NCBI RefSeq assembly: GCF_015529805.1
Contig: NZ_CP064654.1
Location: 868,001 to 932,000 of the forward strand
Source: Qipengyuania soli
GTDB taxonomy: Bacteria > Pseudomonadota > Alphaproteobacteria > Sphingomonadales > Sphingomonadaceae
Reading direction: 5' to 3'
Length of the DNA: 64,000 nt
Shown: piece after piece, positions 4,496 through 8,883 of the stretch
How positions within the stretch are numbered: position 1 is the stretch's first letter
How the letters are laid out: every line of letters starts with the position of its first letter
Notes under the pieces: model-generated
The model's input: the letters and a program-made list of their open reading frames with translations, nothing else
Database searches by the model: none
Told to the model about the DNA's origin: nothing
Translations under genes and position numbers: made by a program

Positions 4496-4553
4496 GTTCT
4501 CTCGGGGTCGTCGGGTTACGGGGGTTGTTGCCCTCGACCCGGGGAGCGGCTAG

Positions 4554-4581
4554 GGGCGGCGCCGACAAGCGCCGCCCTTTT
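4554..4581 (+). terminator. Intrinsic terminator between secreted-protein gene and ahcY
   Basis: An 8-bp perfect GC stem (GGGCGGCG / CGCCGCCC) with an 8-base loop is followed by TTTT. It lies 58 bases after the stop of the secreted-protein gene and 42 bases before the ahcY start. It probably ends the upstream transcript. A role as an attenuator of ahcY cannot be excluded, since little room for an ahcY promoter remains downstream of it. Confidence 0.8.
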
Positions 4582-4623
4582 CGCATCTGCGGTGCATATC
4601 CCCTATCCACCCGAGGATTGACC

Positions 4624-6033
4624 GTGACCGCCTTCACCGACTTCGTGATCAAGGACATTGCGCTGGCCGACTATGGCCGCGCCGAAATTGCCATTGCCGA
4701 AACCGAGATGCCCGGCCTGATGGCGCTGCGTGAGGAATACGGCGCCAGCCAGCCGCTCAAGGGTGCGCGCATCACCGGCTCGCTGCACATGACGATCCAG
4801 ACCGCTGTCCTCATCGAGACGCTGGTGGCGCTGGGTGCCGACGTGCGATGGGCGACCTGCAACATCTTCTCGACCCAGGACCACGCCGCCGCCGCGATCG
4901 CCGCGCGCAACATTCCGGTGTTCGCGGTGAAGGGCGAGAGCCTGGCCGACTATTGGGATTATGTCGGCTCGATCTTCGACTGGTCGACCGATGAAGACCC
5001 GGACCTGACCGCCAACCTCATCCTCGACGATGGCGGCGATGCGACCATGTTCGCGCTGTGGGGTGCCCGCATCGAGGCCGGCGATGAACTGCCCGAGCCG
5101 CAGAATGCCGAGGAAATCGAATTCCAGCGTGCGCTCAAGGCCTTCGTTGCCAAGAAGCCGGGCTACCTCACCGCCTCGGTGAAGAACATCAAGGGCGTCT
5201 CCGAAGAGACGACCACCGGTGTCCACCGCCTCTACCACATCGCCAAGGGCGGCAAGTTGCCGTTCCCGGCGATCAACGTGAACGACAGCGTCACCAAGTC
5301 GAAGTTCGACAACCTCTACGGTTGCCGCGAGTCGCTAGTCGACGCGATCCGCCGCGCAACCGACGTCATGCTTTCGGGCAAGATCGCCTGCGTCGCCGGC
5401 TTCGGCGACGTCGGCAAGGGCTCGGCCCAGTCGCTCCGCAATGGCGGTGCGCGCGTGCTGGTGACCGAAATCGACCCGATCTGCGCGCTGCAGGCGGCGA
5501 TGGACGGCTTCGAGGTCGTGACCATGGAAGAAGCCGTGACCAAGGCCGACATCTTCGTCACTGCGACCGGCAACGAGCACGTCATCACCGCCGCCCACAT
5601 GGAGGCGATGAAGGACAAGGCGATCGTCTGCAACATCGGCCACTTCGACAGCGAGATCCAGATCTCGGCGATCGACAACTACGAGTGGAACGAACTCAAG
5701 CCCGGCACTGACGTGGTCAAGTTCCCCGACGGCAAGGAAATCATCGTGCTGGGCAAGGGGCGCCTGGTGAACCTCGCCTGCGCTACCGGCCACCCGAGCT
5801 TCGTGATGAGCTTCAGCTTCACCAACCAGACGCTGGCCCAGATCGAACTGTGGACCAAGGGCGACGACTACGACAACCAGGTCTACGTCCTGCCCAAGCA
5901 CCTCGACGAAAAGGTCGCTGCGCTGCACCTCGACAAGCTCGGCGTGAAGCTGACCCAGCTCAGCCAGAAGCAGGCCGACTACATCGGCGTGCCGGTGGCC
6001 GGGCCGTTCAAGCCGGACCACTATCGCTACTAA
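4624..6033 (+). CDS. ahcY: Adenosylhomocysteinase AhcY
   Basis: A 469-residue NAD-dependent enzyme hydrolysing S-adenosylhomocysteine to adenosine and homocysteine in the methyl cycle. Recognisable elements include [20 protein letters not shown], the substrate site [14 protein letters not shown], the NAD-binding loop [12 protein letters not shown] near residues 260-270, GHFDSEI, and the conserved C terminus KPDHYRY. The length matches alphaproteobacterial AhcY, which carries an insertion relative to the human enzyme. The GTG at 4624 is preferred over the TTG at 4618 because GAGG lies 7 bases before the GTG. It is 73 bases ahead of divL, a neighbour pair I know from other alphaproteobacteria. 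Confidence 0.98.
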
Positions 6034-6106: not shown

Positions 6107-8449
6107 ATGGATTCCTCACCCGCTTTGCTAGCCGTCGTCGGCCTGCTGCTTGCCCTGTGGACCGCTGCCGCGGTCTGGGTGATGCTGCGCGCAAGCGGCC
6201 GCGAGCAGAAAACCGTCGCCAGCCGCAAAGCAGCGCTGCGCATGGCACGGATGCTGGAGGAATCTCCGGCGATACCCGTGCTCGTGCGGACCGACGGCAG
6301 GATCGAGGCGCCCGACCGCTTCGCGCGGTGGCTTGGGCTCGCCAAGGTGCCCGAATTCCTCAGCGAACTGGCCGATCTCGACGGCAGCGGGCTTTCCGAA
6401 CAGCAGGTCGAGGAACTGACGCGCAAGGTCCGGCGGACACAGAAGACCGCCAAGCCCTTCCGCATGTCGATCACCGTCCCCGGATCGCGCCGCGCGTTGT
6501 CGCTCAACGGCACGCTTGCCGACCCGGCGGTTTCGCCCAGTGGCGCGGCGCTCGTCTGGGTGTTCGACTACAGCGAGAGCCAGCAGGAACTCAGCCAGCT
6601 GCGCGAGGATGCGGCACGCGCGCAGGACGATTTCGGTGCACTTGTCGGCCTGATCGAGGCGGCGCCGATGCCGATGTGGTTTCGTGGGGCGGACATGAAG
6701 TTGCGCCTCGTCAACCGCGCCTATGTCGAAGCGGTCGGGGCCGAAAGCGCAGACCAAGTCGTCGCCGACCAGGTCGAACTGGTCGAGACCGTTGGTGGAC
6801 GCTCCGCCTCGCAAGTCGCGCAACAGGCGGCAGACCGCCGCCAGCCGATCGAGCGCATCGTATCCGCGACCATCGACAACGCCCGACGCACGATCCGCGT
6901 GACCGACCTGCCGCTGGTGGGCGAGGGGATCGCCGGCTACGCCGTCGACATCGAGGAGATGGAGGAGCAGGCGCGCGAATTCCGCGCCTTCCGCGAAGCC
7001 CAGCGCTCCATGCTCGACCAGCTTTCCATCGGCGTGGCGCAATTTGATGCCCAGCACCGGATGAACTTCGCCAACCAGCCGTTCCACCGCGTCTTCTCGC
7101 TGCCGCCGGGTGTGGTCAACGACCGCACCACGTTCGAGCAGATGCTGCTGATCGCGCGCGAGAACGGGCGTATTCCCGAGGTTCGCGACTTCCCCGCATG
7201 GCGCAACGAGGTCGCCCGCTGGTTCCTGTCCGACGAACCGCACGAGGAAGCATGGCCGCTTTCGGACAGCACCCACCTGCGCATCATCTCGCAGCCGCTG
7301 CCCGATGGGGGCCTCGTCATGATCGCCGAGGACCGGACCGAACAGCTGGCCTTGTCGGCCATGCGCGACACTCTGCTTCGCACTCGCACGGCAACCTTCG
7401 ACAGCCTGTTCGAGGCACTGGCGGTGTTCGCACCGGACGGTCACCTTGAGCTGTGGAACCGCGGTTTCCCCGGTGCATGGGGTGTCGATCCCGAAATGCT
7501 CGACGGGCATCCGCAGGCAGAGGACCTGCTAGAATCCATCGCGGCCAATCTCGCCGATCCCAAGTCCGTTGCGATCGTCGGCAACACCATCCGTTCGGCG
7601 ACCCTCGACCGAAAGAAGCGCGAAGGGCGGATCGAGATGGCGGACGGCCGCACGCTCGACTTCGCGGGCGTCCCGCTGCCCGACGGCAATGGCCTGCTGA
7701 CCGTGCTCGACGTCACCGCCTCGCGGCAGGCCGAAGAGGCCCTGCGCGAACGCAACCGCGCGCTGGAAGAGGCGGATGCGGTCATGACCCGCTTCCTTGC
7801 CAACATGAGCTACGAATTCCGCACGCCGCTGACCTCCATCGGTGGCTTTGCCGAACTTCTGTCCAGTGGTGTCGCAGGCGAACTCACACCGCAGGCTCTC
7901 GAATACGTGCAGGCGATCACGCTGTCGGTCGGCAAGCTCACCGAGCAGGTCGAGAACGTCCTCGACCTGTCGCAGAGCGAGGCCGGACTGATGCCGTTGC
8001 GGAAGCAGAAGATAGACCTGCTGCCTTTCGTCACTGACATCGTCCGCGCCGAGGAAGAGCGGATCGTCGAGGCTGGCCTGACGCTCGACCTCAAGGGCGA
8101 TCCGGGCAAGATCATCAATGCCGATCCGCAGCAGCTGCGCCGGGCAATCACCAACCTCCTCGACAACGCGATCAAGGGCACTCCCAAGGGCGGGAAGCTG
8201 CTTGTCGACATCGGCCGGAAGCGTGGCGACACCAGGATCGTCATCGCCGACAACGGCACCGGCATGAGCCAGCACGAACTCGCCCGCGCGCTGGAGGGCA
8301 TCCGTATGGCGCCTGACGGCAAGGGCATCGAACGCCGTCAGGGTCTCGGCATCCCGCTCGCCCGCCAGCTGGTCGAGGCGCATGGCGGAACGCTCGAGTT
8401 CCAGAGCCGTCGCAACGCCGGGACCACTGCGACGATCACGCTGCCGTGA
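6107..8449 (+). CDS. divL: DivL-type PAS-domain pseudo-histidine kinase (Tyr in place of phospho-His)
   Basis: A 780-residue protein. One N-terminal membrane segment (about residues 5-26) is followed by a long PAS-like sensory region (to about residue 540). Then comes a dimerisation helix pair and a HATPase domain with N-box (TNLLDNAIKG), G1 (DNGTGMS) and G2 (GLGIPLARQLVEAHGG). The phospho-acceptor motif reads NMSYEFRTPL, so Tyr569 stands where kinases carry His. This is the signature of Caulobacter DivL, which controls CckA-CtrA signalling with DivK; length (Caulobacter about 769) and neighbours (tsaE) agree. ATG 6107 starts just before the membrane segment. It overlaps tsaE by GTGA. Confidence 0.9.
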   Translation: MDSSPALLAVVGLLLALWTAAAVWVMLRASGREQKTVASRKAALRMARMLEESPAIPVLVRTDGRIEAPDRFARWLGLAKVPEFLSELADLDGSGLSEQQVEELTRKVRRTQKTAKPFRMSITVPGSRRALSLNGTLADPAVSPSGAALVWVFDYSESQQELSQLREDAARAQDDFGALVGLIEAAPMPMWFRGADMKLRLVNRAYVEAVGAESADQVVADQVELVETVGGRSASQVAQQAADRRQPIERIVSATIDNARRTIRVTDLPLVGEGIAGYAVDIEEMEEQAREFRAFREAQRSMLDQLSIGVAQFDAQHRMNFANQPFHRVFSLPPGVVNDRTTFEQMLLIARENGRIPEVRDFPAWRNEVARWFLSDEPHEEAWPLSDSTHLRIISQPLPDGGLVMIAEDRTEQLALSAMRDTLLRTRTATFDSLFEALAVFAPDGHLELWNRGFPGAWGVDPEMLDGHPQAEDLLESIAANLADPKSVAIVGNTIRSATLDRKKREGRIEMADGRTLDFAGVPLPDGNGLLTVLDVTASRQAEEALRERNRALEEADAVMTRFLANMSYEFRTPLTSIGGFAELLSSGVAGELTPQALEYVQAITLSVGKLTEQVENVLDLSQSEAGLMPLRKQKIDLLPFVTDIVRAEEERIVEAGLTLDLKGDPGKIINADPQQLRRAITNLLDNAIKGTPKGGKLLVDIGRKRGDTRIVIADNGTGMSQHELARALEGIRMAPDGKGIERRQGLGIPLARQLVEAHGGTLEFQSRRNAGTTATITLP

Positions 8450-8883
8450 GGGTGGAATTGCCCGATCTGGCCGCGATGGAGCACTTCGGCGCGGTAATCG
8501 CTGGAAAGCTCCAGCCGGGTAATGTCGTGGCACTTTCCGGCGATCTGGGGACCGGCAAGACCACGCTCGCACGGGCGATCATCGCCGCGCTCGGTCATGA
8601 AGGAGAGGTTCCTTCGCCGACCTATACGATCATCGAGACCTACGATGCGCTGCGCATCCCGCTGGTCCATGCCGATTTCTACCGGCTGGAGGACCCGGCA
8701 GAGGTCGAGGAGCTGGGGCTCGACGACTATCGCGAGGGCGCCGCACTGCTCGCGGAATGGCCCGATCACGCGGGCGGCTTCGCACATGAGGCAGGTTGCC
8801 TTTCAATCACGCTGGAAAAAGTGGGCGAGGGCCGCGAAGCCGTTGTAACCCCGGGCGACAATTGGCAAAGCCGCTGGCCATGA
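8446..8883 (+). CDS. tsaE: tRNA t6A37 biosynthesis ATPase TsaE
   Basis: A 145-residue P-loop ATPase that works with TsaB and TsaD to place threonylcarbamoyl on A37 of ANN-decoding tRNAs. The Walker A motif GDLGTGKTT lies at residues 32-40. The family signature continues with PSPTYTIIETYD and HADFYRLEDPAEVEELGLDDY. The start GTG is inside the divL stop (GTGA), and its own stop overlaps the amgK start (ATGA), so it sits in a coupled chain. TsaB and TsaD are not in this window. Confidence 0.96.
   Translation: MRVELPDLAAMEHFGAVIAGKLQPGNVVALSGDLGTGKTTLARAIIAALGHEGEVPSPTYTIIETYDALRIPLVHADFYRLEDPAEVEELGLDDYREGAALLAEWPDHAGGFAHEAGCLSITLEKVGEGREAVVTPGDNWQSRWP

Follow-up and report, generated by a model that had tools for sequence, protein, structure and literature searches.

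The open reading frame at 6107-8449 (+) of the window, the 64,000-nucleotide stretch of Qipengyuania soli DNA analyzed here, encodes what, judged by its sequence, is a true DivL orthologue, a pseudo-histidine kinase with a tyrosine (Tyr569) at the site of the phospho-accepting histidine. We put at roughly 0.86 the probability that this membrane-anchored, multi-PAS protein works as a receiver and not as an enzyme: its former kinase core has most likely ceased to phosphorylate, phosphorylated DivK (DivK~P) would dock on the DHp helices around Tyr569, and the PAS region would relay the change caused by docking to CckA, a hybrid kinase that would then set the phosphorylation of ChpT and CtrA. The sequence, architecture and orthology of the protein, the presence of its partner genes and its pattern of co-loss with DivK were obtained in this analysis. 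A DivL in this bacterium is of a kind already known and the finding is in itself ordinary, since DivL of Sphingomonadales is already in print; in what Brilli 2010 (PMC2877005) and Tomasch 2021 (PMC8116508) report of DivL from that order, we found no difference that sets the window protein apart. The gene, its parts and its conserved neighbours are placed as follows.

4525..6033, + strand: ahcY, conserved upstream neighbour (NCBIfam TIGR00936 over cut-off; synteny)
6107..8449, + strand: divL, 780-aa pseudo-histidine kinase (translation, Pfam, 4q20 match, tree)
6119..6196, + strand: hydrophobic N-terminal membrane-anchor helix, about residues 5-30 (hydrophobic sequence; model helix 5-52)
6269..6568, + strand: PAS-like fold 1, residues 55-154 (model secondary structure only)
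6674..6949, + strand: PAS fold 2, residues 190-281 (Pfam PAS_8 at 182-218, E 4.7e-6; model)
7031..7333, + strand: PAS fold 3, residues 309-409 (Pfam PAS_7 best stretch 303-414, E 3.8e-26 for the protein; model)
7415..7711, + strand: PAS fold 4, residues 437-535 (Pfam PAS_4 431-540, E 7.4e-10; model)
7715..7981, + strand: DHp (HisKA) helices, residues 537-625 (Pfam HisKA 560-627, E 1.1e-15; model)
7811..7813, + strand: Tyr569 codon, phospho-acceptor site (translation; Tyr in 71/71 family DivLs with DHp)
8006..8446, + strand: CA (HATPase_c) domain, residues 634-780 (Pfam HATPase_c 673-780, E 7.1e-21; model)
8153..8176, + strand: N-box NLLDNAIK, residues 683-690 (family alignment)
8249..8263, + strand: G1 box DNGTG, residues 715-719, DNGTGM in the sequence (sequence, family alignment)
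8342..8359, + strand: G2 box GLGIPL, residues 746-751, with the GLG glycines (sequence, family alignment)
8446..8883, + strand: tsaE, conserved downstream neighbour (NCBIfam TIGR00150 over cut-off; synteny)

The translation of divL gives 780 residues and a stop. The longest version of the frame starts at TTG 6065 and has 794 residues, but ATG 6107 was preferred as the start because it agrees with the open frames of the relatives. Tyr569, a TAC codon, lies inside ANMSYEFRTPLTSIGGF in a box that reads NMSYEFRTPL, where a histidine is expected, and the translation confirms the replacement of the phospho-accepting histidine claimed in a preliminary description of this DNA. The same description called the ATP-binding boxes intact, which is slightly overstated: the N-box, G1 and G2 are present, but no canonical F-box is recognizable by eye, and residues 733-745 (ATP lid) are among the least certain stretches of the AlphaFold2 model. 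This model (mean pLDDT 83.8) contains an N-terminal helix, four PAS-type folds, DHp and CA, with a relative placing of the domains that is unsure because the pTM is 0.34. An N-terminal anchor and tandem PAS folds ahead of DHp-CA make up the layout that defines DivL. Pfam and the model both find this layout in the window protein, and the earlier statement that its PAS region and anchor match DivL therefore stands.

Among solved structures, the best sequence match of the window protein is 4q20, Caulobacter DivL (E 2.6e-29), whose acceptor box reads NVSYELRTPL. In a tree of the DHp-CA part, with the acceptor column masked and with own_L003, own_L004, L150, L333 and five His-less rows left out, 29 DivL rows, including the window protein and 4q20, lie on one side of a branch from 19 His kinases (100/97), so that the phylogeny of the catalytic part groups our protein with Caulobacter DivL. 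In a first catalytic-core tree, DivL did not fall on one side of a branch; that tree was disturbed by own_L003 and own_L004, long-branched kinases of the same genome whose top NCBIfam models are ChvG and PhoR, both under cut-off. In a Foldseek search with the whole model, 4q20 is outranked by 20 other chains, most of them kinases with PAS domains or phytochromes; DivL thus does not stand out by fold, as it does by sequence match and by tree. No DivL model appears among the best 25 of 71 NCBIfam matches, those 25 all being kinase models far under cut-off. One could suppose an ordinary PAS histidine kinase, not a DivL, that lost its histidine recently, considering that the core matches many kinases and is 33% identical to the kinase L002 of its own genome and 35% to 4q20. 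We regard the chance of this as next to negligible in view of the 100/97 DivL clade, of the tyrosine in 71/71 family members with DHp, and of the ahcY-divL-tsaE order, which is found in the loci of 78/80 named relatives. These relatives were scanned with a pattern requiring Ser-Tyr and are excluded from all Tyr counts; two of them (L174 and L177) are 85 and 86% identical to the window DivL in the best segment, which puts the bacterium among the Erythrobacteraceae, close to Qipengyuania, and the congener G312 has a DivL 82% identical to it. In class-wide loci, ahcY lies upstream in 58/80, tsaE downstream in 47/80 and both in 38/80, within about 4 kb of divL. Caulobacter crescentus DivL (4q20) shares with the window protein the tyrosine at the His site, the PAS-DHp-CA layout and the clade, whereas HisKA kinases of the DivJ/PdhS/PnpS type share the DHp-CA fold but differ by a histidine at the acceptor site and by forming a separate clade.

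Tyrosine is the usual state of DivL at the acceptor site across the class. Of 241 class genomes, 145 had a match at E <= 1e-30, and the best match was taken from 80 of these, all at E <= 2.2e-81 and picked by similarity to the window protein, not by Tyr; the acceptor was Tyr in 74, His in four, Val in one and Phe in one. Within the family, DivL was found in 73/79 genomes (E <= 1e-60), and all 71 proteins that have a DHp carry the tyrosine. With such numbers Tyr569 is not there by chance, and the preliminary description was right to read it as DivL, although not as a hallmark of Caulobacter DivL in particular, given its presence in 74/80 class loci. On a class tree (acceptor column masked; quick and midpoint-rooted), the non-Tyr states correspond to four changes nested among Tyr forms, and for that reason look derived. 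The His-bearing orthologues, L135, L136 and L145 (family f33) and L168, also nested among Tyr forms, are apparently Tyr-to-His reversions, judging from their position on this tree; the first three are sited between ahcY and tsaE, and L168 has neither gene within 4 kb. The relatives L103 and L150 carry Val and Phe at the acceptor site, respectively, and no ChpT match exists in G035, the genome to which L103 belongs.

Conservation in the family is not uniform along the catalytic part. Mutations R553A, T557N, Y562A and H579E were reported to disrupt DivK binding by Caulobacter DivL (Childers 2014 PMC4211667). The first two residues are conserved between Caulobacter and the window as Arg572 and Thr576, each present in 70/70 family members; the equivalent of Y562 is Phe581 (Phe in 67 and Tyr in 3 of 70) and that of H579 is Tyr600 (70/70), two points in which the family departs from Caulobacter. 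In the acceptor box of the 71 family DivLs, Tyr, Glu, Arg and Pro never vary, whereas 66 of the 71 retain the N-box Asn, 68-69 the G1 residues and 66 and 67 the G2 glycines. A constant Tyr box beside eroding ATP boxes is the pattern that would be expected if the docking surface were more constrained than catalysis. The first role proposed for Caulobacter DivL was that of a tyrosine kinase. With Tyr569 as phospho-acceptor, such a role would suit a tyrosine that is invariant in the family and a window protein that keeps its N, G1 and G2 boxes, but we judge it very improbable: the N-box Asn or G1 residues are gone in 6/70 Tyr-bearing family members, some DivLs of the class carry His, Phe or Val instead, and Caulobacter DivL is described as having neither autokinase nor phosphatase activity and as binding ATP weakly (Childers 2014 PMC4211667). 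The same source reports that Y550H confers no autonomous autokinase activity, though it is stimulated by DivK~P, and that growth is perturbed; because this mutant takes phosphate in a DivK~P-dependent manner, the core of Caulobacter DivL is not entirely inactive (Childers 2014 PMC4211667). For Caulobacter DivL, DivK~P binding, CckA activation, polar localization and a lack of autonomous kinase activity have been reported (Childers 2014 PMC4211667; Tomasch 2021 PMC8116508), and it is from the Caulobacter work (Childers 2014 PMC4211667) that we infer DivK~P binding, catalytic inactivity and control of CckA for the window DivL. Counted against the proposed receiver are the class-wide acceptor, which can be His, Phe or Val, and a window core only 35% identical to 4q20.

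The genome (2.91 Mb, one contig) was searched for CckA, ChpT, CtrA and DivK, and gene types for all of them were found, as in Caulobacter. CtrA scored 424.9 bits against an NCBIfam cut-off of 350 (best named structure 4qpj, E 1.2e-54) and CpdR 183.3 bits against a cut-off of 180. The top models of the CckA candidate are CckA (504.6 and 436.3 bits, both below cut-off, with a query covering 783 codons of a 915-codon frame), and its best named structure is 5idm (E 3.5e-34), with 5idj, an unnamed 'histidine kinase', scoring higher. The ChpT candidate has ChpT as top NCBIfam match (162.6 bits, under cut-off), is over the Pfam PF10090 cut-off and matches 4fmt at E 5.4e-25, and the best structure match of the DivK candidate is 1m5t, Caulobacter DivK (E 2.4e-34). 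CckA and CtrA genes, whose absence would count against the DivL assignment, are thus present; the preliminary description went further and had the CckA-ChpT-CtrA circuit operate, for which gene presence alone is no proof. When the 23 HATPase_c matches of the genome were sorted by eye, no stand-alone kinase of the DivJ/PleC type with an intact His was recognized among them, and hence the input of the circuit is probably unlike that of Caulobacter. Apart from DivL, two proteins have a box of the HE-RTP type: L004, with NASHELRTPL, has PhoR as its top model, and the hybrid kinase L002, with NMSHEIRTPM, has TorS, both models being under cut-off. That no stand-alone DivJ/PleC was recognized is in accord with Brilli 2010 (PMC2877005), according to which Sphingomonadales, like the present genome, keep CckA-ChpT-CtrA, with DivJ-PleC-DivK degenerate or lost; Tomasch 2021 (PMC8116508), which includes Sphingomonadales genomes, describes divL as more widely conserved.

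The distribution of DivK in the family bears on the role of the DHp helices. DivK matches in the 79 family genomes are bimodal, with E values either <= 1e-34 (and >= 50% identity) or of 8e-19 and worse, and on this basis DivK is present in 68 and absent in 11. DHp and DivK are both kept in 68 genomes and both lost in eight, DivK alone is lost in three and DHp alone in none; all eight genomes without a DivL DHp (six without a DivL match, two with the DHp missing) are therefore without DivK (Fisher p 6.3e-9, relatedness ignored). On an AhcY tree of 59/79 genomes (20 had no usable AhcY), DivK changes seven times and DHp six, and independent pairs on supported branches change in the same direction in four cases, in opposite directions in none and show no difference in one (p 0.125), too few for significance. 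Against the reading of DivL as a DivK~P receiver, three genomes that have no DivK (G254, G290 and G291) retain a DHp with its tyrosine. Overall, the co-loss fits a DivL that would receive DivK~P rather than act as a kinase, but the test corrected for relatedness has too little power; a like remark, with data not shown, was made by Brilli 2010 (PMC2877005) on DivL lacking its kinase domain in the absence of DivK. In G251 (L371) and G279 (L372) the frame stays open without the DHp segment, the PAS part is retained and the CA is decayed; both genomes lack DivK and keep ChpT. G279 is parted from G251 on the AhcY tree by the Tyr-keeping G281 and G300, and the two DHp deletions are, on the evidence of that tree, separate events.

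In the six family genomes without a DivL match (E <= 1e-60), ChpT is missing from four and weak in G243 (E 4.8e-11) and G297 (6.9e-8), both over the Pfam cut-off; these six were scored as without ChpT together with G254, whose sole match is short, at 2.2e-4 and within a 664-codon frame. In five of the six (G243, G306, G297, G265 and G273; L418-L422), tsaE still comes after ahcY, immediately in G265 and at a distance of up to about 0.9 kb in the remaining four, and since the two genes are still so close (G256 being the exception), divL is missing from its usual place. At these five empty sites, the genomes have also lost DivK, and ChpT is absent or weak. Of the 241 class genomes, 133 have both DivL and ChpT, 12 have only DivL, 27 have only ChpT and 69 have neither, counts in which some DivL matches may be other kinases. 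CtrA has been reported to be dispensable in Sphingomonas melonis (Tomasch 2021 PMC8116508), and DivL may accordingly be weakly selected. A DivL decaying as a relic would account for the 6/79 DivL-less genomes with no or weak ChpT and for the eroded CA boxes of some family members, but is quite improbable for a full-length frame 82% identical to that of G312, with a Tyr box constant in 71/71 and with DivL and ChpT inherited together.

The best lead of the analysis is a second kinase-like gene of the same genome that has no histidine at the acceptor site.

G000:C1:1192713-1194158 (locus L014:1429-2874), - strand: L014, His-less kinase-like paralogue (box residues, ATP-site residues)

Its box is GRDLTPVLRQPINRII, in which the phospho-accepting His followed by Glu, as in DivJ/PleC/PdhS, is replaced by Pro-Val. 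Relatives of L014 were matched in 61/79 family genomes (E <= 1e-40), and 59 were left after L367 and L368, kinases with HELRTPLN boxes, were dropped. At the His site these have Pro (36), Ala (six), Arg (four), Gln (three), Lys (two), a gap (one) and, once each, Asn, Gly, Glu, Val, Thr, His and Asp, and their N-box, G1 and G2 residues are kept in 58-59/59. The gene and DivK are both present in 58 of the 79 genomes and both absent in 10, with DivK alone absent in one and L014 alone in 10 (Fisher 1.2e-6, uncorrected for relatedness); the independent pairs are weak, with on average 2.4 in the same direction, 0.3 opposite and 2.3 without difference. Tracing L014 to PleC or DivJ failed, as nine class relatives match DivJ, PdhS, TorS, HrmK and PnpS models alike; L014 itself scores 92 bits with the NCBIfam DivJ model (cut-off 1000) and has no PleC model among the NCBIfam matches listed. 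Of eight neighbouring open frames scanned, just two were recognized, one as a competence protein and the other as a protein of the RNase J type, and a library search on sphingomonad histidine kinase pseudokinases found no publication on a protein of this type. As a tentative and rather doubtful possibility, the DivK branch of Sphingomonadales may run without DivJ/PleC through two His-less kinases of opposite decay. DivL would be the DivK~P receiver, with an invariant Tyr-DHp, deleted in DivK-less lineages, and an ATP site that erodes; the L014 type, with a near-perfect ATP site and an erased His (Pro in Erythrobacteraceae), would stand in for DivJ/PleC as a DivK sensor or scaffold that binds ATP but does not phosphorylate.

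As a gene find, this DivL is routine, and what the analysis adds is the pattern of joint loss with DivK and a further kinase without the acceptor His. The question raised is what sets DivK phosphorylation where DivK and DivL occur without a recognizable DivJ or PleC. Two lineages without a Tyr-bearing DHp, which have kept the PAS part and are both without DivK, amount to a natural experiment, and the co-loss supports, beyond Caulobacter, the view that a dead kinase core may serve as an input sensor.
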